Below are positions 874 to 56,666 of a stretch of 64,000 bases of DNA, in pieces. The notes under the pieces are model-generated. The model did no database searches, had not been told where the DNA came from, and saw nothing but the letters and a program-made list of their open reading frames with translations. The stretch is from NCBI GenBank assembly GCA_904830895.1, contig LR882958.1, positions 986,001 to 1,050,000 of the forward strand. Reading direction: 5' to 3'. Both the position numbers and the translations under genes were made by a program. Within the stretch, counting starts at the first letter, position 1; every line of letters begins with the position of its first letter. Origin of the DNA: Planktothrix rubescens CCAP 1459/22. Lineage in GTDB: Bacteria > Cyanobacteriota > Cyanobacteriia > Cyanobacteriales > Microcoleaceae.

Positions 874-1149
874 TTATTCACCCTTGATTTCCTTCAACCT
901 TTTTAACAAGTCATTCAGAATTTTTTCAACTGAGTCTAATAACTGATTATCTTCAGGAGTTAACTGTTTTTTTAATTCGTTATCGAGAATTAAAAACTTA
1001 CCTAGTTTAAACCAATCATTTCGTTGTTCTTCTAATAATTTGTCTTCAAAATCTAATCGTTCTTCTATCGGAGAACGATATTTTTCTTCTGGGATTAATT
1101 TAACAAAAGAACGTACAATTTTGATCCAATCTTTATCTTTATTTTCCAT
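874..1149 (-). CDS. Small charged protein of the GTPase operon
   Basis: This 91-residue protein is very rich in Lys, Glu and Asp and is predicted to be largely helical. I see no signal peptide, membrane segment or known motif. It starts 8 bases after the stop of the membrane-protein gene and is the last gene of the four-gene operon, so it is probably co-translated with it. Its likely role is as an accessory or partner of the GTPases, which is inference from position only. I do not recognise the family. Confidence 0.7.
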   Translation of the reverse strand: MENKDKDWIKIVRSFVKLIPEEKYRSPIEERLDFEDKLLEEQRNDWFKLGKFLILDNELKKQLTPEDNQLLDSVEKILNDLLKRLKEIKGE

Positions 1150-1157
1150 AGGTTGAT

Positions 1158-2168
1158 CTATCTTAGATTTACCGGAACTGGCGGTTTGGGAGTTACCAAA
1201 CTTTGCGGAATCGGTATTTTCTCCGGCTTCTCTTTCTTGTTCTCCATCACCTTTAACGTCACTATCATTGAACTTAATATTGTTATGATTATTAAGATTA
1301 CCGCTACCACTTTTATGTTTAACCTGAATCTTGGGGACTTTCCCATTGGTAAATCCCCCTTCTCCTCAGTTTTTTCAGGTTCTATTGAAGGAGATGACAA
1401 TTTTTCAACTTGATTATCCGTAGGTATTTCAGGCTTAAGATCAAGATCAATAGATGAAACCGAGACTGTATTCTTATCAACCTTACTGATTAAAATTGCT
1501 AAATCATCTTCCGGTAATCCGGTGTTGATGATTTTCTCAGCCAAACTAATAATTTCTTGCTCATTACCTATTTTTTCATCTTTTTTGTACCAATTTTGTT
1601 GATCACCTTCAGCTTTATCTAAATTTGAAAGTAATTGTTTGAGCTTATCTGCTGAATTTTCAGTTAATTGATTGATTTTATCGAGATTAACCTCAAATTC
1701 CTCTAATCCTTTAAAATTAATTGCCTCATTGATTGTATTAATAAACTCTGGATCTTTACCTACAAAGCTTAATAATGCGCGTGCTGCTAAATGTCGTAAC
1801 ATTAATTCGTTTTTAGGTGAAATACTGTTACTTTCATCAGGATCAACAACCCATGCAACTGCATTATATACTTCGGTTTCTATTGTACTTCCAAATTTGT
1901 TAGTTTGTTTGTTTACAAACTCAATTCCTGAAACCATGAATAATAATTGTTCAGAATAACGCATGAGAACAAGCGAAGGATTTTGATAATTTATCAAATA
2001 TCCAATTGTTCCTAAATCCCCTGTTTTTTTCTTAACCAACCTTTCTTTAAGCATATTAGGAGATTCTGAGATATACTGGATATTTTCATTTTCAATCTTG
2101 CGCCAATGAATTCCAGTTTTACCTAGGGCATAACTTCTCACATAAACCTCTGGCTCTAGCTCTTTCAT
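1158..2168 (-). CDS. C-terminally membrane-anchored protein of the GTPase operon
   Basis: This 336-residue protein has a soluble N-terminal domain of about 130 residues (start MKELEPEVYVRSYALGKTG), a charged helical middle (about 130-235), a Pro/Glu-rich linker, and one strong hydrophobic segment near residues 288-308. A short Lys/Pro-rich tail follows. There is no signal peptide, so the bulk is probably cytoplasmic with a tail anchor. It lies 19 bases downstream of the second GTPase gene and 8 bases upstream of the small charged protein, so the operon is clear. A membrane anchor or effector coupled to the GTPases is plausible but inferred. The N-terminal domain may be one of the GTPase-associated domains of bacterial conflict systems; I cannot confirm this by eye. 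Confidence 0.75.
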   Translation of the reverse strand: MKELEPEVYVRSYALGKTGIHWRKIENENIQYISESPNMLKERLVKKKTGDLGTIGYLINYQNPSLVLMRYSEQLLFMVSGIEFVNKQTNKFGSTIETEVYNAVAWVVDPDESNSISPKNELMLRHLAARALLSFVGKDPEFINTINEAINFKGLEEFEVNLDKINQLTENSADKLKQLLSNLDKAEGDQQNWYKKDEKIGNEQEIISLAEKIINTGLPEDDLAILISKVDKNTVSVSSIDLDLKPEIPTDNQVEKLSSPSIEPEKTEEKGDLPMGKSPRFRLNIKVVAVILIIITILSSMIVTLKVMENKKEKPEKIPIPQSLVTPKPPVPVNLR

Positions 2169-2187
2169 GTTTCAATCTCCTTGTCTA

Positions 2188-3465
2188 TTAATTATGGGGA
2201 ATAGGCAACAATTTAGCACCTTGCAAAATAGCAAAACCATCACTATTTTTACAGCCAATGGCAAAAGCAAAAACAGCATTGTTAAAAATCTTAATTTCCT
2301 CCTGCGTAGCTTGAACTTGGGTTTTAGACTTCTGAACTTTAGTTTGAATGTCTTGAACTGTTTTTTCCGTTGATTTAAGGTTTTCTTGCGCTGTTTTATA
2401 AGCTCCGTACTTATCATCAAATAATTTGTCTATAGATCTGAAGGGAAACCAAAGTTGCTGTTGTTCTCTAAATGCTTTCTGTCGTTGAGCAACTTTTTGT
2501 TTAACTTCATCAAGTTTATCTTTTTCTGTGGATAGACTTTTTTCAAGTTCAGCTAGTTCTCTTTGATCTTGCTCTAACTGACGTTTTTTTTCCTCATTAG
2601 AAAGATTTAGCAAAAACCGTAAAACATATCTCAGGGGTTGATCTCCATCTTTTGGAGCATAGGGAGCTTTCATTTCTGTTTTATTAAAGTAAAATTTTGT
2701 AAAACCCTGATCATCAGTTTTGTGGTAAGCAAAAACAGCATTACCAACGGTTTGAACGGGTGTCACCACAACTGCCACTTTACCAAATAACCCATCGGAT
2801 TTTAAAAAATTTAACAGTTTTTGATATCCGATTTGAACGTGCTGGAGTAAGTTGTCAGCATCTTGGGAAGTTCTCATGTAAGTTTCGCATTTAACAGGAG
2901 CTAAAATGACTAATCTGGGAACGGATCTGGGATCGGTCAAACCTGCATAGGCAGATTTTAACAGGGTTGTGATCCGTTCAGGATCGTTTTTTTCTTCATG
3001 CCAAGTTCCCACTTCGCTATGGTTGACCCTTCCTGTCTTTTTTTCCATTAATGCAGTAGCATCAATGGGAATAATTACAGCATCACATTTTAATAATTTT
3101 TCCTTCACATACTCTTTCTCTGTTTGTATTGAATCTGTTGCAAAATAATCACCTGATGGGTCAGTAAATCTAAGTTTCATAAATTTTCTGCCACCACTCC
3201 CAAGCTCAAAAACAAAACCTTTATCATCCCAAAGATCATCAAAGATGTCAGTTCTTTTTACGGATTTTTGAAATTTAGGATCTATAGTTCTTAAAACTAT
3301 CTTGCATTCGGTTATAGCTTGTAATGTTCTAGTATCATCAGTCCACGTTTGAAGATTAGCTTGTTCAAACGTTTTATCGAATTCTTCGTGCATGGCTGCT
3401 AACAGACTGGTTTTACCAATCTGTCTAGGAGCAACCATGATAATATTTAACTCATTAGTTAGCAT
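2188..3465 (-). CDS. P-loop GTPase-like protein with coiled-coil C-terminus
   Basis: A 425-residue P-loop NTPase. The Walker A/G1 loop APRQIGKTS lies at residues 12-20, very close to the N-terminus. A G3-like DPSG follows at 102-105, and a hydrophobic strand ending in LAPVKCE (about 188-194) occupies the G4 position, where NKxD is expected but degenerate. Residues about 275-385 form a long charged coiled coil with many Gln, Glu and Lys, and the last 40 residues are more hydrophobic. The layout (P-loop at the N-terminus, degenerate G4) resembles the 'double-GTPase' type partners described in predicted bacterial conflict systems; that family link is my recollection, not a search result. It starts 16 bases after the stop of the dynamin-like gene and is in the same operon. 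Confidence 0.78.
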   Translation of the reverse strand: MLTNELNIIMVAPRQIGKTSLLAAMHEEFDKTFEQANLQTWTDDTRTLQAITECKIVLRTIDPKFQKSVKRTDIFDDLWDDKGFVFELGSGGRKFMKLRFTDPSGDYFATDSIQTEKEYVKEKLLKCDAVIIPIDATALMEKKTGRVNHSEVGTWHEEKNDPERITTLLKSAYAGLTDPRSVPRLVILAPVKCETYMRTSQDADNLLQHVQIGYQKLLNFLKSDGLFGKVAVVVTPVQTVGNAVFAYHKTDDQGFTKFYFNKTEMKAPYAPKDGDQPLRYVLRFLLNLSNEEKKRQLEQDQRELAELEKSLSTEKDKLDEVKQKVAQRQKAFREQQQLWFPFRSIDKLFDDKYGAYKTAQENLKSTEKTVQDIQTKVQKSKTQVQATQEEIKIFNNAVFAFAIGCKNSDGFAILQGAKLLPIPHN

Positions 3466-3481
3466 GAAAATTTTCTCCGAT

Positions 3482-5785
3482 TTAAACGTTTAAAAACTGC
3501 AATAATTCAGGCTGATTAGCACTTTCTACATTCTTAACTAATTGCAGCCAATGATCACGAAGTTCGTGATTATTTTCGAGTTGACCCAGTTGTTCTGGCC
3601 AAACTTGCGATCGCACTTCCCGCAAGAAATTTTTCCATTCTTCCTGAACATCTTCTTGACGGATAATATTATCAACAAATTCTTCAACCATGGCATAAGC
3701 GGCTTGATTTGGTTCCCAGAGCAATTCTTCCAAAGCAGGTTGAATACGATGCACCGCAGTATCATATTTAATCTCTAGTGCAGTTAGAATTTCTTGTGCC
3801 GTAGTTGAAGCATCAGGACGCAATATTTCATCTTTATCCAGTAATTGTCCCGTTGAATTATTCGACGGTAAAACATTCGTGAGTTGATCTAAATGCTTCC
3901 GAATTCGGTGTTGTACCAATCCTCGATAGGACAGTTCAAAATCAATAAAAATTCTCAATCCTTGTTTTAAATTAGGAGAATAGTCTTGATCTTCATCTGC
4001 TAAATCGATCCTTTTTTCTAATTCTCGGATAAATTCCGATCCTCTCGCATTTGTTAAGACTCCCAAGCGACCTTTTTCAATCAAAACTTCAGCGACCTGC
4101 TTTTTGGTATCTTCTATCATTTTTTTTAGTCCATCATCTAAGGTAATAAAATGATGGGATAATAACACCCGCAACTTATCTTGATAATCTGCATAGGTTA
4201 TCAACGCACCACTGGTTCTGATTCGTTCATTAATTTCTTCTAAGGGATTTTCCGAGGACAAAACACCTTTGTTTTTGTTACAATTTTGAATCGCTTCAGT
4301 GACCTTATCCTCTAAATTTTTATCTGGATTATCCCGATATAACCACAGGTCTGAGCGCAAGTTTTCTAAACCGAGTACAACATCTTTCCACCAACCTTTT
4401 GTATTATTTCCAAATAACTTACTAAACTCTTGTTCCATAAATTTATAAAAATTTTCTCCCGTTCCACCAAGGGCATTTTTTGCATGATCTAACTCAGTTT
4501 TTAATTGTTCATGAAGTTGAATCAAACACTCTTGATTAGATTTTGCATATCGCGCATCTAATTCAATGACTTGAGTTTCTAAATAATCTAAAACTTGATC
4601 TAAGACTTGATTTGCTTGTTCTGGATTACGACAGTCAGCAATCAGGCATTCAACCACCTTAATTTGAACTATTTGTTGATCAATATCAGCTTTAAGATCT
4701 TGACAGCTTTTTAAGTTACCACTGTCATCACCATTAACTTTATTGTTAAGAACAAAAAATGATCTGGCTGATAATTCATTTAAAGCTTGACTGGCTGTAT
4801 TATAAAGTTCTGTGTCGTTAATTGTCCACACAGAACCATTCTCATTGGGTTTAAGAATAAATAAAACTACGTCAACTTCTTCCCCTAAAGTTGTCAACAT
4901 TAATTTTTCATCACCCAGTTTAAAATCTCCTAACCCTGGTAAATCAACTAATGCAATTTTTCCGATTTCATTGGCATTAGGAAAAGAGCAGGAAATTTCT
5001 ACTTTCCTAACCGCTAAATGTTTGCTATCGGTGAGTTTTCCATTTTCTTCTTTCTGAGCAACATATTCTCGGATTTTTTCTTTGGTTATCCGTATCGGTT
5101 GTTTACCAATAAACGGGGAATAATCGTTAAAATTGAAGTGATAATCATCACAAAGACGTTTATAGATTGTTTTAGTGGTGGCATCATTTCCTTGCAGTAA
5201 ATCCTGTGATGGAAGTTGGATTTTGTGAAAATCATCTAGGCTCTGAGGTGGGGTTTTAGGTAAAATATTAGCCAATTTTTCATGGTCAAAGTAGGGAAGA
5301 ATTACCTCTTGTAAAAATGATTCTTCAGTATGAAATGTAACTAACGCTTCAGTTAGATTTTCCGGTTGATGATAGATTGTGCTACGAACCGCAGTACAGG
5401 CTTTTCCTGAACGGGCTGGAATTTCATCATTAGAGAGTCCACTGAGGGTTTGTAGTAGGGTACTTTTCCCTTGTTTCATTTGTCCAACCACGCCGATATT
5501 GAGGGTTTGACGAGCGAAACGAATCCTTAACTTATGTAGTTCTCGTAATTCTTTTTCTATTTTTGATAAAATTGAAGAAAAATCAATTTTATTTAACTTA
5601 TCAACAATCTTAGCCTCGTTTGGCCATTGGTTAAGTTGTTGCTTTCGGTCACTTTCTAAAATTTGAATTGCATTTTGCAGATTCTTTAAATTAGATTCTA
5701 CACTGATGATCCTCTGAGCTAGGGGCTGGCGTTTTTGAATAATTTCAGTAATTCGCGCAGATCTGTTAGCTGTTGTCATGTTCAT
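3482..5785 (-). CDS. Dynamin-like GTPase, first gene of a four-gene operon
   Basis: A large GTPase of 767 residues with G1 GQMKQGKS at about 101-108, G3 DLPG at 281-284 and an NKVN in the G4 position at 348-351, followed by about 400 mostly helical residues. That layout is typical of bacterial dynamin-like or LeoA-like proteins, which act on membranes. I place the start at the ATG of MNMTTANRS. The frame stays open to 5920, but the segment beyond 5900 is unique flanking sequence and the outer duplicated copy does not continue there, so the extra 45 residues look accidental. The gene heads a tight operon (gaps 16, 19 and 8 bases) with a second GTPase, a membrane protein and a small protein. 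Its first 131 codons are duplicated at 8785-9292 beyond the restriction-modification genes. Confidence 0.82.
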   Translation of the reverse strand: MNMTTANRSARITEIIQKRQPLAQRIISVESNLKNLQNAIQILESDRKQQLNQWPNEAKIVDKLNKIDFSSILSKIEKELRELHKLRIRFARQTLNIGVVGQMKQGKSTLLQTLSGLSNDEIPARSGKACTAVRSTIYHQPENLTEALVTFHTEESFLQEVILPYFDHEKLANILPKTPPQSLDDFHKIQLPSQDLLQGNDATTKTIYKRLCDDYHFNFNDYSPFIGKQPIRITKEKIREYVAQKEENGKLTDSKHLAVRKVEISCSFPNANEIGKIALVDLPGLGDFKLGDEKLMLTTLGEEVDVVLFILKPNENGSVWTINDTELYNTASQALNELSARSFFVLNNKVNGDDSGNLKSCQDLKADIDQQIVQIKVVECLIADCRNPEQANQVLDQVLDYLETQVIELDARYAKSNQECLIQLHEQLKTELDHAKNALGGTGENFYKFMEQEFSKLFGNNTKGWWKDVVLGLENLRSDLWLYRDNPDKNLEDKVTEAIQNCNKNKGVLSSENPLEEINERIRTSGALITYADYQDKLRVLLSHHFITLDDGLKKMIEDTKKQVAEVLIEKGRLGVLTNARGSEFIRELEKRIDLADEDQDYSPNLKQGLRIFIDFELSYRGLVQHRIRKHLDQLTNVLPSNNSTGQLLDKDEILRPDASTTAQEILTALEIKYDTAVHRIQPALEELLWEPNQAAYAMVEEFVDNIIRQEDVQEEWKNFLREVRSQVWPEQLGQLENNHELRDHWLQLVKNVESANQPELLQFLNV

Positions 5786-5900
5786 TTTAACCTGGCTGAC
5801 TGGTCTTTGATGAAGTCTCCCAATTTTATCATGAGTCCGTAAAAAATAACCTCTGTGTACTAATATTTTTTGCTTCGCCTCTGGTTCCCTGGTTATACCT
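5393..5900. repeat. 508-bp direct repeat, inner copy
   Basis: This stretch, covering the first 131 codons of the dynamin-like gene plus 115 bases upstream, recurs at 8785-9292 with the same length, no indels that I can see, and few substitutions. The two copies enclose the restriction-modification pair. Confidence 0.95.
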
Positions 5901-6040
5901 TGCTCGTCTTTACGGTACATTTTCCCCGACTCATCATGCCAGCTTTTTGGACTATTTTACACCTTGTCCTTGCACCTGTTCCGGTTTTTATTGCTGAAAC
6001 ATCCTTACACTGTCCCTTTTTCAATCTTCTTCAGCAAACC

Positions 6041-7147
6041 CTACTTAACAACAAATATAACATCTGTATAGCTTTTATATTGTTGGTTATTAAATGACCA
6101 GTCAAGTTTGAGTTTTTCCCAATCAAAGAACTGATTATTAAGATAATTATCAATCTCTGATTTTAATAGTTGATAATCTCTCTTGATCTTCCAACTGTTT
6201 TCAAGATGATTAAGATCAATAACTATTAAAAATAGTCGATTACTAGCATCAAATCTTTGAGTGCCTTGTTGTTCATATAACCATTTAAGAAGGTTTCGAG
6301 GTTGTTGTATGGTTTCGGTAATAATTTCACGTCTTGTTGAAATAAATTGATGGTAAAAATCTTGTACTTTTGTTTGTGAATTTTCTGAAAAAGCAGCAAT
6401 TAAATCTAATAATAGATCCTGATCGCTTCTGTTTTTATCAAATGGAATTTCAAAGGAATTAGCTGCTTTTTTTAATTCAGACACTTCTTTAACTGTTAAC
6501 CCTCTCTCTTTTCTTTTTTTCTCCATGAATCCTATAGGAAAATAGGTCATTTTGAGATCAAAAGGAACTTGATCTATAAAAAAATCTACTTGCTTGATTT
6601 TACCAATGGTTGGTAAAACACGAGGATGATCTTTAAAAATATCTTCGATAATAATAGATGTCCAATTATTATACCATGAACAAAGAATAAAACCTTTTAA
6701 ACTATTTAATATTTCGTTTTCAATCTTTTCAACTAAGGAATCATAGTTATTTATTTTTTTAATATAATTATTGACTAAGTGTTTATTAATATCATTTTGA
6801 TGAATACCGCCCCAATCAAAGACTCGCAACTTATAAAGTTCTGCCAAAATTTGACGCTCTAAATTCTTTCTTTCTATTCGTTCTTGAGTATAAATTTCAC
6901 GGATAGTCATTTCAATAATAGAAGTAGAAACTTGTGCCTCAAAAGATTTTTTTAATAGTTCTTTAGCTGGAAGTTTGTCTACATAAATTTTACTTTTTTC
7001 CAACAAATAAAGTAAATATTCTTTTCGAGCTAAAGAACGAAGTTTGAGAAAATATAAACCATCTTCAGAGTTAGTTAGTTCATAAAAATTACCCTGATTA
7101 TATAAAGATTCAAGATGAAAAAATGTATTTAAGTTATTATTAGACAT
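6041..7147 (-). CDS. Probable type II restriction endonuclease (PD-(D/E)XK-like)
   Basis: A 368-residue protein with no family I can name by sight, but its position (24 bases downstream of a DNA methyltransferase on the same strand) and a candidate nuclease core support a restriction enzyme. In the middle (about residues 195-215) the strand KQVDFFIDQVPFDLKMTYF offers an acidic residue on one strand and D-L-K on the next, which fits the D...(D/E)xK pattern. It is strongly A/T-rich with many Ile, Asn and Lys codons, unlike the surrounding genes, suggesting transfer with the methyltransferase. It ends about 120 bases from the dynamin-like gene. The cut site cannot be predicted from sequence alone. 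Confidence 0.65.
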   Translation of the reverse strand: MSNNNLNTFFHLESLYNQGNFYELTNSEDGLYFLKLRSLARKEYLLYLLEKSKIYVDKLPAKELLKKSFEAQVSTSIIEMTIREIYTQERIERKNLERQILAELYKLRVFDWGGIHQNDINKHLVNNYIKKINNYDSLVEKIENEILNSLKGFILCSWYNNWTSIIIEDIFKDHPRVLPTIGKIKQVDFFIDQVPFDLKMTYFPIGFMEKKRKERGLTVKEVSELKKAANSFEIPFDKNRSDQDLLLDLIAAFSENSQTKVQDFYHQFISTRREIITETIQQPRNLLKWLYEQQGTQRFDASNRLFLIVIDLNHLENSWKIKRDYQLLKSEIDNYLNNQFFDWEKLKLDWSFNNQQYKSYTDVIFVVK

Positions 7148-7171
7148 GATTCATACCTCAATCTATAAAAA

Positions 7172-8677
7172 TTAGTTAAGTTTTAAAAAATCTTCAGGAA
7201 ACTCTACAGACCATTCAGGAATTTCCAATAAAGGCTTTAATTTTTCTAAATCATCAATCCCTGATTTTTGATAGATTAAAATAAAATCACTTTTTAAACT
7301 TCCTTCTCTATTATCTTGGATCACAGATTGGGCTGAATAATTCATAGGAAAATACCCTCTAAATTTAAGATATTGTAAAGATGTAAGATGTTGTTTTAAA
7401 AATTTCCAACTATCTTTATCTTTAGCATTAAAGAACAAAGCTAGTATTCCACTTGGTTTTAAAATACGACTCGCTGTTTTTAAAAAAATACTCATATTAT
7501 GGGTATAATCTTCTTTATTTTTTTCTCTATTTTTTGCATTAGAAATTACAATTTCCTCAGTAAAATTTGGGATTTTACCCAATAAAGAGTTCCACATTTC
7601 ACTCAATTCTAAATAAGGAATTCTATCGCCATGAGGAGGATCAGTTATAATTAAAGATACAACTTCATCAGGACATTCTTTTAAAACAGTAAGATTATTA
7701 CCTAAAATCAAAGCCAATTGATTATTTTTATTGATAACAGGTTCTAGCCTTGTAGAAACTAAGTATCTTTCTTTTTCTTTGTTATCAATAACACTTTTAA
7801 TTAAATTATTTACTTTATTTTCAAAACAGTTCCAAACATTAATCTCAAAATGAAGTTTAGGTCTCCAATATCCCACTACCCAACTTCCTACTTCTATTTT
7901 ATTAGTTATTTTGTTCTGATTCTTACCTCGGCTTGTGATAGCGAAAACCATTTTTGACATTTGACCAGAAGCAGCTGTTAGCGAAAGTAACAAGGGTTTT
8001 TGGATATTCTGAGGTAAATGGTTAATTTCTTCTCTTAAAATGTCAATATTATACAAAGCGCGGCCAGTAAATATATCATTTAGGGTTAACAGATTAGTGG
8101 TATTAATTCGACTATTATTAAAAAGCTGAATTTTACGCAAACTTTTGGATATATAATTTTCATATTGATTGATTAAAATACAATCATAATCTGTTGGTTG
8201 TCTTTCTTCACGAGTTTTTTTAAAGTTTGATATATTCCAAGTTGAAATTAATTCTTCCCCATTCCATAGATAGTGACTTGCTATTTTATCGTCTTCTAAA
8301 ATGTAGGTTTTATATATTTTATGCTTAATTTTTTGATCTAAATTATTGATGGCTTCTTGAAGTTGAAAAGAACAAGGAAGATTGACCATAAGATTTGATA
8401 GTTCAATAGCTATGGGATTAATATCAATCCCGATAAATCTTCTTTTTTTCAGAAGTGCTTCCCTTGCCACTAAACCTGAACCCAAGAAAGGATCAAGAAT
8501 GAGATCATCTTTTTGGGTTAAAGCGTCAATCAGAAATGATAAAGACTCAATTGGTTTTTTTCCCCAGTATTTGTGAAATCTTGCTAACCCTTTATAGCCT
8601 TTAGGATATTTTAAATTGTTGTAATTAATTGAATTCTGACTATGATTAAATAAGTTAAGTTGATAGTAATTTTCCAT
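7172..8677 (-). CDS. DNA methyltransferase of a type II restriction-modification system
   Basis: A 501-residue SAM-dependent DNA methyltransferase that protects host DNA from the adjacent endonuclease. Near the N-terminus it has FHKYWGKKP (about 34-42) followed by the SAM-binding motif I LDPFLGSG at about 61-68, then FIGIDINPIA. The catalytic motif IV appears late, about residue 345, as TDPPHGD, so the DPPY consensus has His in place of Tyr. The large region between them (about 100-330) probably includes target recognition. The DPP(Y/H) class points to amino (N6-adenine or N4-cytosine) methylation; which one is not decidable here. Base composition is as A/T-rich as the endonuclease gene and unlike the flanks, so the two genes probably moved together. 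Confidence 0.85.
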   Translation of the reverse strand: MENYYQLNLFNHSQNSINYNNLKYPKGYKGLARFHKYWGKKPIESLSFLIDALTQKDDLILDPFLGSGLVAREALLKKRRFIGIDINPIAIELSNLMVNLPCSFQLQEAINNLDQKIKHKIYKTYILEDDKIASHYLWNGEELISTWNISNFKKTREERQPTDYDCILINQYENYISKSLRKIQLFNNSRINTTNLLTLNDIFTGRALYNIDILREEINHLPQNIQKPLLLSLTAASGQMSKMVFAITSRGKNQNKITNKIEVGSWVVGYWRPKLHFEINVWNCFENKVNNLIKSVIDNKEKERYLVSTRLEPVINKNNQLALILGNNLTVLKECPDEVVSLIITDPPHGDRIPYLELSEMWNSLLGKIPNFTEEIVISNAKNREKNKEDYTHNMSIFLKTASRILKPSGILALFFNAKDKDSWKFLKQHLTSLQYLKFRGYFPMNYSAQSVIQDNREGSLKSDFILIYQKSGIDDLEKLKPLLEIPEWSVEFPEDFLKLN

Positions 8678-8784
8678 TTTTACTTTAATCCTAATTAAAC
8701 AAATTAATTTTTTAGTTGACTATTGTAATTATTATAACAGTTCAATTTCAATAGAAACCCCTGTTTTTTTAGGATCTGGTCAAA

Positions 8785-9292
8785 AGTACAGGCTTTTCCT
8801 GAACGGGCTGGAATTTCATCATCAGACAGTCCACTCAGGGTTTGTAGTAGGGTACTTTTCCCTTGTTTCATTCGTCCAACCACGCCGATATTGAGGGTTT
8901 GACGAGCGAAACAAATCCTTAACTTATGTAGTTCTCGTAATTCTTTTTCTATTTTTGATAAGATTGAAGAAAAATCAATTTTATTTAACTTATCAACAAT
9001 TTTAGCCTCGTTTGGCTATTGGTTAAGTTGTTGCTTTCGGTCACTTTCTAAAATTTGAATTGCATTTTGCAGATTCTTTAAATTAGATTCTACACTGATG
9101 ATCCTCTGAGCTAGGGGCTGGCGTTTTTGAATAATTTCAGTAATTCGCGCAGATCTGTTAGCTGTTGTTATGTTCATTTTAACCTGGCTGACTGGTCTTT
9201 GATGAAGTCTCCCAATTTTATCATGAGTCCGAATAAAATAACCTCTGTGTACTAATATTTTTTGCTTCGCCTCTGGTTCCCTGGTTATACCT
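8785..9292 (-). pseudogene. Duplicated 5' fragment of the dynamin-like gene (508-bp repeat, outer copy)
   Basis: This is a second copy of codons 1-131 and the 115-base leader of the dynamin-like gene, without the rest of the gene. It is dead: the codon for Trp54 (TGG) is TAG, the second in-frame Met is lost, and in the P-loop GQMKQG reads GRMKQG. It is oriented as the intact copy and marks the far edge of the restriction-modification insertion. The 107 bases between the methyltransferase start and this copy are A/T-rich and hold no gene that I can see. Confidence 0.93.
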
Positions 9293-9389
9293 GGGAACCA
9301 AATCCAGTTGTTCCAACGTTGTTGCGCTTGCTGCGCATTCTTTTCTGATGCTATACTACAACGAATAAGATGCGCTAAAGCGCAACAAC
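9274..9389. repeat. Two nested-style palindromes between pseudogene and glycosyltransferase
   Basis: The first is TGGTTCCC (9274-9281) facing GGGAACCA (9293-9300); it straddles the exact edge of the 508-bp copy. The second has 12-bp arms, GTTGTTGCGCTT (9318-9329) facing AAGCGCAACAAC (9378-9389), around a 48-base loop containing a weaker inverted repeat. Both resemble REP-like elements. The inner copy at 5900 lacks the right half of the first palindrome, which shows that the outer junction is the ancestral one. Confidence 0.7.
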
Positions 9390-9397
9390 GGGATGAT

Positions 9398-10471
9398 TTA
9401 TAGGTGATTTTGGATGATTTTTGCTGTTTCTTTTCCGGTTTTTTCCCAACTAAATTGTTTAACTTGTGCTAATCCTAATTGTCTTAAATGCGATCGCATT
9501 TCCATATTATTTGCTAGGGTTTCCATTGCTTCTGTAATTTCTTCTACTTGATAAGGATTAACATATAATGCCGCATTTCCCCCCACTTCGGGTAAGGAAG
9601 ATAGGTTAGAGGTAATAACGGGAGTTCCGCAAGCCATCGCTTCTAAAACCGGGAAACCAAACCCCTCCCAAAGACTGGGAAAAACAACAGCAATGGCTTG
9701 ATTAATTATTGTAGTTAATTCATCGGTTGGAACATAATTTAAAAACTTTACTTGTTGAGTTAATTCTAACTTTTGAACTTGCCTTTTGAGTTCGGGGGTA
9801 TAGGTTTCATCCGTTGGGCCGGCTAACCATAATTCATAGTCTGATGGTTTTTTTAACCCGGCAAAAGCATTAATTAATCGGGACACATTTTTATGAGCAT
9901 CATGACGACCAATATAGAGAAAATAATTGTCGGTTGGTAGGTCTAAAAATTGGAATTGTTGAGGGTTGTAGGCGAGGGGAATTGGTGTAATTTTGTGTTC
10001 TGGAATGTTAAAAAACGCGATTAAATCTTCAGCCGTTGCGATAGAATTACAGATAATATGTTCGGCTTGAGATAATACCAAGGGAATATAATATTTAAAA
10101 TACGCTGTTAACCGAGAACCCCGCCTCGGAAACCTTAACGGAATTAAATCATGAGCCATTACAATTGACCGACATCCTGAATATAAAGGGGCTTCTGGAA
10201 CTGGAGAAAATATCAAATTCCCCTTTAATTGCTGATATATTTTAGGGAGTTTAAACTGTGTCCAAAGTAACCGCCTAAGATGTCCCTTTGTTCCTTGGTC
10301 GGGGGTCATATTATTGGGAACGGAATAACAAGAATAATCGGGGTTTTCTTGAGCGGTTAATAAGGTAGGTTGCAGAGGTTTTAAAGCGGGTAAAATATGA
10401 CTAGCATAAATAGATATTCCTGTGGGTTCAGGAATTAAAAATGATAAATTAATCAAGAGTGATTTACTCAT
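9398..10471 (-). CDS. Glycosyltransferase, GT4/GT1 family
   Basis: A GT-B-fold glycosyltransferase of 357 residues. The C-terminal nucleotide-sugar domain starts at about [17 protein letters not shown] and carries the family hallmark [19 protein letters not shown], whose Glu residues contact the donor. I start at the ATG of [11 protein letters not shown] because the 31 extra upstream codons lie in a dispersed repeat (10482-10617) and are not protein-like. It is the last gene of the rhamnose cluster transcribed on the minus strand. The mannosyl/rhamnosyl-type transferase role is inferred from family and context; donor and acceptor are unknown. Confidence 0.9.
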
Positions 10472-10481
10472 AAAAAATCTA

Positions 10482-10617
10482 TATAGCAGGGAACAGGGAA
10501 CAGCCCCCCCAAACCCCCCGTGCACGAGGGCTAGGGGGGAGGGAACAGGGGGGAAATACTTCACCGTCTGGGTTCTAAGATCCGTCTGGTGTCCTAACTG
10601 CCTTGGCGGTTGCTATA
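10482..10617. repeat. MITE-like dispersed repeat, copy A
   Basis: A 136-bp non-coding element ending in TATAGCA ... TGCTATA. It contains a G/C-rich hairpin around CCCCGTGCAC and the conserved segment CTAACTGCCTTGGCGGTTGC. The same element occurs inverted at 56520-56666, and its hairpin core occurs in tandem at 43040-43168. It lies just upstream of the glycosyltransferase start. Confidence 0.85.
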
Positions 10618-56519: not shown

Positions 56520-56666
56520 TATAGCAACCGCCAAGGCAGTTAGGACACTAGACGGATCTTGGAACCCAGACGGTGAAGTGTTTTCCCCCAGATCCGGCGT
56601 TCCCTCCCTCCCTAGCCCCCCGTGCACGGGGGGTTTGGGGGGGATGTTCCGGTGTTCCCTGCTATA
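56520..56666. repeat. MITE-like dispersed repeat, copy B
   Basis: A 147-bp element with ends TATAGCA / TGCTATA, inverted relative to the copy at 10482-10617. It contains AACCGCCAAGGCAGTTAGGA at its left and the CCCGTGCACGGG hairpin at its right. It lies between rsmE and the ABC exporter gene. Confidence 0.88.

Follow-up and report, generated by a model that had tools for sequence, protein, structure and literature searches.

What keeps a dynamin-like GTPase, a second GTPase of a different kind and a membrane-anchored protein together in one bacterial operon, and what might such a combination do? The question arises from a 64,000-nucleotide stretch of the 5.7-Mb genome of Planktothrix rubescens CCAP 1459/22 (contig 1, positions 986001-1050000), referred to here as the window, near one end of which four genes, P4, P3, P2 and P1 in order of transcription, lie on the minus strand. 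A first-pass annotation of the DNA had described four minus-strand genes with intergenic gaps of 16, 19 and 8 bases, and positions and spacing are all confirmed. The answer set out below is that P4, P3 and P2, in this order, make up a genuine core of three genes that is conserved and apparently undescribed, and that the fourth gene is accessory to it. The four genes are as follows.

3482-5785, minus strand: P4, dynamin-like GTPase, 767 amino acids (aa) from the ATG at 5785, Pfam Dynamin_N
2188-3465, minus strand: P3, DO-GTPase2-like GTPase, 425 aa, DO-GTPase2 at E 9e-4, PxKCE motif
1158-2168, minus strand: P2, predicted membrane-anchored third component, 336 aa, assigned by family alignment, hydrophobic segment at residues 287-305 and a short tail
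874-1149, minus strand: P1, charged, fast-evolving accessory protein, 91 aa, with a 98-aa homologue in the same-species genome

A conserved three-gene core

The loci fetched for comparison carry L-numbers, L151 being that of a second genome of the same species. This genome codes for all four proteins, with amino-acid identities over aligned codons of 96% (P4), 84% (P3), 75% (P2) and 60% (P1). Co-occurrence was surveyed in 98 genomes, that of the window included, of which 31 gave a P3 match, with 38 P3 hits in all. P4 lies within 3 kb of P3 on the same strand in 31 of these hits and is upstream in all 31; among the other seven, P4 is 11-16 kb away in the upstream direction, still on the P3 contig, in three, and in four the contig has no P4 hit on that strand. 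The third gene was followed at 48 P3 loci (two duplicates dropped, window excluded) with jackknifed profiles, which were rebuilt without the tested locus and retained its near relatives. At 45 loci a P2-family gene was found on the strand of P3 and no more than 5 kb downstream of it (no more than 200 bases at 38), the misses being L066, L082 and L085, the last of which stops at a contig edge. At L128 (3752-6416) the P2-family match comes in two pieces separated by other open reading frames, which looks like disruption by an insertion, and in genome G028 a kinase-AAA-GAF-histidine-kinase gene between P4 and P3 is also interpreted as an insertion. The first-pass annotation had allowed that its genes might not co-occur elsewhere; for these three they do, and because order and partners recur, and the same-species genome encodes all four, the operon is more than a product of chance.

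The same gene order is present in Nonomuraea, an actinobacterium, where the P2 profile matches at E 1.7e-15, and a Streptomyces aurantiacus plasmid carries a dynamin, a GTPase with PVKCETY, a 290-aa third protein and a 139-aa gene. This third protein has an RG...DY motif and a C-terminal hydrophobic segment; the P2 profile does not match it, and motif, position and anchor alone agree. Across 37 loci the protein distances of the partners are correlated (r 0.77 for P4-P3, 0.70 for P3-P2 and 0.61 for P4-P2; equalled in none of 2000 permutations each, with host relatedness uncontrolled). The distribution of P3 is patchy, at 21 of 291 genomes in a phylum sample (E 1e-10) and none of the listed genomes of genus g11, and in some relatives the operon is plasmid-borne. 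The window genome itself holds a second, diverged dynamin-GTPase-P2 trio (L053, 6026-10231).

The two GTPases

The reading frame of P4 is open to 5920 (3482-5920, 812 aa), and most homologues start to align at residues 44-57 of this longer frame, which makes the ATG at 5785 the likely start. Dynamin_N is matched at 36.1 bits against a cut-off of 27, and the residues of GxxxxGKS and DxPGLGD are invariant in 26 aligned rows. The first-pass description of a dynamin-like GTPase with its G1 motif at about residues 101-108 is thus sound, with the numbering counted from the ATG at 5785. No close solved relative of P4 emerged from sequence searches, and the 60 P4 profile matches listed, out of 100, name neither SynDLP nor Nostoc BDLP.

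Eleos consists of two dynamin-like proteins, LeoA and LeoBC, and like it the present operon includes a dynamin-like GTPase. The PADLOC models give P4 alone E-values of 3.7e-5 for LeoBC and 0.0013 for LeoA, and over the 26 P4 rows LeoBC is matched, in part, by 13 (best 2.5e-12), LeoA by three and five other models by one or two rows each. The operon differs from Eleos in having one dynamin rather than two, P4 being the only one of the four proteins with a dynamin-family match in Pfam, and in that P1, P2 and P3 have no Leo match.

The P-loop of P3 occupies residues 12-19, and where the [NT]KxD of the G4 motif would be expected there is VKCE. This is part of a PxKCE motif in which, over 34 aligned rows, P, C and E never vary and K hardly does. 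In the same rows the DxxG motif is invariant, with D102 and G105 fixed; a conserved glutamate in Walker B marks the DO-GTPase/GAP1 systems, and in P3 the position after G105 holds D, E, G or another residue. The annotation's P-loop at residue 12 and degenerate G4 are therefore borne out. Against Pfam DO-GTPase2 the window protein scores 19.4 bits, under the cut-off of 27; its counterpart in the second copy within the window genome scores 25.3 bits, or 27 with its neighbours in frame, and 33 of the 34 P3-family rows match with an E-value no higher than 0.01, the best being 3e-11. At the level of the family, sequence comparison thus suggests that P3 is a divergent relative of DO-GTPase2, and a profile comparison also relates it to DO-GTPase1-type genes (E 4e-5, probability 69%). 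Its closest named relatives are in cyanobacteria. Matches of P3 to JetC, SMC and similar proteins were discarded as coiled-coil noise, and its predicted structure, with a mean predicted local distance difference test score of 47.4, was not used.

The membrane-anchored protein and the fourth gene

The N-terminal domain of P2 is constant across the family, with a consensus IYVxSRG...DYxW that reads VYVRSYALG...GIHW in the window. A single strong hydrophobic segment near the C-terminus, at residues 287-305, provides the predicted anchor of the C-terminally anchored membrane protein that had been proposed here, and 33 of the 41 family members scanned have such a segment; the same scan found none in P1, P3 or P4. 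P2 matched no Pfam family at E 5 and showed no detectable relation to the large proteins encoded third at three DO-GTPase1-type loci.

The case of P1 is different. Against a profile built from six fourth genes of other loci, its full score was reached by 4 of 3000 shuffles and that of its same-species sister by 6 of 3000, while the best single stretch was reached by 39 and 8 of 3000, respectively; in an earlier run with 2000 mixed shuffles one shuffle scored above both. Such kinship is suggestive and is not counted as homology. P1 is here read as an accessory gene, the evidence not supporting a fixed place for it in the module, and of the four-gene unit originally proposed it is P4, P3 and P2 that recur.

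Variation around the core

The window belongs to a subgroup, together with L032, L033, L035, L051, L052, L128-L130 and L151, in which P3 is about 420 aa long owing to a coiled-coil extension (approximately residues 290-395) confined to this subgroup; several of these loci have a small fourth gene following. P3 of most other relatives is about 310-370 aa. The attachments vary from locus to locus, with an AAA_35 gene adjoining a 1300-aa dynamin at L070, an added AAA_35-VWA gene at L127, a PBP-like gene at L061 and, in the third protein of L064, five stretches of Ig-like repeats (best 385-471) after a hydrophobic segment at 270-288.

Dynamins with no P3 close by were sampled at nine loci, L118-L126. 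At three of these, L120, L122 and L126, a paralogous dynamin is followed by a DO-GTPase1 gene (47.7, 34.9 and 48.3 bits, respectively; cut-off 27) and then by a protein of 907-1030 aa. L125 has CHAT and nSTAND1 genes near the dynamin, L119 a HigB-like toxin gene, and L123, as the next gene, one that has no GTPase match; L121 stops at a contig edge. For L118 and L124 the comparison of neighbours covered the P1-P6 and A1-A3 rows alone, bar one kinase gene at L118. By layout L156 also resembles the dynamin/DO-GTPase1 loci, the P3 profile matching its second gene only at E 0.0046.

Relation to described systems

Among published systems, the DO-GTPase conflict systems come closest. Kaur et al. (2020, PMC7159879) describe DO-GTPase/GAP1 as predicted conflict systems that are nearly completely absent in cyanobacteria; the loci with dynamin, DO-GTPase1 and large protein mentioned above lie in cyanobacteria. 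The operon resembles these systems in that P3 is near DO-GTPase2 and that a GTPase core is combined with membrane components and variable attachments, and the earlier impression of a multi-GTPase conflict system is to this extent supported. It differs in having a dynamin as the other GTPase and a P2-family protein as third component, and in that GAP1 was not found, there being none among the Pfam families listed (25 of 70) for 32 third proteins. The word dynamin does not occur in the main text of PMC7159879, and as far as its passages show, a dynamin is new to that scheme.

Some overlap exists with the cyanobacterial "HSR1 clade" of dynamins, for which PMC5827413 notes a GTP-binding-protein gene downstream. 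The order of dynamin-like gene and then GTP-binding-protein gene is the same, and the loci may partly be identical, which lowers the novelty of the pair and leaves that of the trio as it was; the section on this clade has neither a third component nor a DO-GTPase assignment nor the idea of defence. The same paper ascribes an extended L/INALL/I P-loop to almost all of its proteins, and P4 is without it. No report of a dynamin and a DO-GTPase in one operon was found in a partial literature search that left subscription literature mostly outside (see also PMC10104851, PMC8195603, PMC7016017 and PMC4159319).

Rates of change between two genomes of the species

Comparison with the same-species genome gives ratios of nonsynonymous to synonymous change (dN/dS) of 0.29 for P4, 0.34 for P3, 0.61 for P2 and 0.81 for P1, with 0.14 for the flanking glycosyltransferase gene and 0.35, from 9 changes only, for the flanking epimerase gene. 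Divergence rises toward the end of the operon and toward the anchor of P2, where over aligned codons 210-280 dN is 0.376 and dS 0.215. Along P4, dS ranges from 0 to 0.22, which suggests recombination. An arms race fits this gradient of change, and relaxed constraint fits it too.

The adjoining restriction-modification insertion

Upstream of P4 lies a restriction-modification (R-M) unit bounded by direct repeats.

5393-5900: direct repeat, 508 bp, copy inside the intact dynamin gene, 97.8% identical to 8785-9292
6041-7147, minus strand: probable restriction endonuclease of the inserted unit, PD-(D/E)XK-like residues recognised by eye only
7172-8677, minus strand: DNA methyltransferase of the inserted unit, Pfam N6_N4_Mtase 1.9e-20, PADLOC MTase_II 3.1e-42
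8785-9292: direct repeat, 508 bp, upstream truncated copy of the 5' end of the dynamin gene, a single copy in L151 at 4374-4880

The product of 6041-7147 had no significant match in Pfam, NCBIfam or PADLOC. Between the repeats are about 2.9 kb (5901-8784). L151 has the whole operon, a single 508-bp copy and no R-M pair at the site, window positions 1400-5899 corresponding to 8840-4374 of L151 and 8785-10483 to 4880-3181, and it follows that the unit inserted into the dynamin gene and duplicated a long target in doing so. Thanks to the downstream copy the gene remains complete, and the upstream copy is what is left of a truncated one. The two thus became neighbours recently, in one strain, and the insertion makes a clean example of a long target duplication that spared the target gene, the sister genome supplying the empty site. 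Such duplications with R-M units were reportedly first described from Helicobacter. The term itself is already in the literature.

The flanks of the operon were also followed in seven other genomes of the genus, in none of which were the epimerase and glycosyltransferase genes found adjacent as an operon-free site; they are on separate contigs in six (draft assemblies, where the two may still be neighbours) and 0.5 Mb apart in one. A short repeat at 768-805, next to the epimerase gene, has many copies in genomes of the genus. A dispersed repeat of about 140 bp is present at 10482-10617 and again at 56520-56666, and a 1301-base query holding it gave 46 matches in the window genome and 51 in that of the same species, the repeat accounting for most of the matches listed; in the seven other genomes the matches, mostly weaker, number from at least 5 to 47.

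What might the core do?

The best guess, held with somewhat less than even confidence, is that the module would be a dynamin-effector branch of the GTPase-switch conflict systems, serving in defence against phages or mobile elements. It is suggested by the constant core in constant order, the correlated distances, the kinship with DO-GTPases, the DO-GTPase1 genes that follow paralogous dynamins, the variable attachments, the patchy and mobile spread and the gradient of change. A bacterial dynamin, DynA of Bacillus, is reported to give phage resistance (PMC8844932), although the passages on it mention no operon with P3- or P2-like partners.

From the observed gene order, conservation, GTPase-domain kinship, anchor and rates of change we infer a scheme that is conditional in every interaction, topology, trigger and outcome. 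P2 would be a membrane protein whose constant domain faces the cytosol and whose linker, anchor and tail change fast; it would bind P3 and govern which nucleotide P3 carries. A trigger, perceived by way of P2 or the accessory proteins, might then switch P3, which in its GTP-bound form would recruit or release P4; the dynamin-like protein could assemble on the membrane and seal, remodel or disrupt it, such that infection or spread is stopped. A wider claim, doubtful as a whole, is that of an immune family in which a Ras-like switch and a membrane-anchored longin-like regulator direct a dynamin effector onto infected membranes as a prokaryotic counterpart of animal Mx, GBP and IRG (dynamin-superfamily immune GTPases); its variable outer parts would be the sensors, and its relatives would extend from cyanobacteria to actinobacteria.

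Several observations weigh against a role in conflict. PADLOC matched no system whole, with no match for P1 and P2 and coiled-coil-type matches only for P3, and GAP1-N2 was found in none of 12 genomes including that of the window (GAP1-N1 was covered solely through the Pfam scans). In the same genomes 27 of 59 dynamin hits have no P3 nearby, some being fragments and some paralogues with other partners, and the earlier concern that the dynamin may occur alone with unrelated neighbours is partly justified, even though most P3 hits keep P4. No P3 or P4 alignments were found in viral contigs and none of P4 in phages, the viral scans using two short peptide patterns for each. The R-M neighbour had been expected of a defence hotspot; it does adjoin the operon, but as a recent event within the dynamin gene it is poor evidence for one. 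Finally, whole-gene dN/dS is below 1 throughout, the epimerase gene has 0.35 from its few changes, and relaxed constraint may be all that lies behind the faster change of linker and tail.

The ratios below 1 would also suit a module for membrane maintenance or stress, in which P3 and P2 place and time P4 for repair or remodelling with no part in defence. This is the strongest of the alternatives, if still unlikely. Cyanobacterial dynamins are common, some have conserved neighbourhoods and they are discussed in terms of membrane dynamics (PMC5827413), and a DO-GTPase family protein accompanies some phage-shock-protein operons, with a predicted role in membrane-related stress (PMC11237479). The patchy distribution of P3, the carriage on plasmids and the variability of fourth genes and tails speak for conflict over maintenance, and it is conflict that is placed ahead. 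An improbable alternative is positioning or signalling in the manner of MglA with its longin/roadblock partner MglB, the dynamin being placed so as to serve in polarity, at the surface or in transport. Very improbable is a function linked to plasmids, in conjugation, exclusion or maintenance, which later spread to chromosomes. At L035 and L036, on plasmids typed MPF_T, the operon does follow a TrsK-like transfer gene, with one small gene on the opposite strand in between, and further copies are plasmid-borne. The copies in the window and in the same-species genome, though, are on contigs of 5.5 and 4.8 Mb, and the flanks of other loci are unlike the plasmid ones as far as seen among draft contigs unsorted into chromosome and plasmid.

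Significance

If the module does act in conflict, dynamins would be effectors of bacterial GTPase-switch conflict systems. How the dynamin of Nostoc is regulated is described as an open point in PMC5827413, and the operon would then offer a ready test of bacterial dynamin regulation and a link to the dynamin-family immunity of animals. The P2 family would, in turn, be a new membrane partner common to cyanobacteria and actinobacteria.

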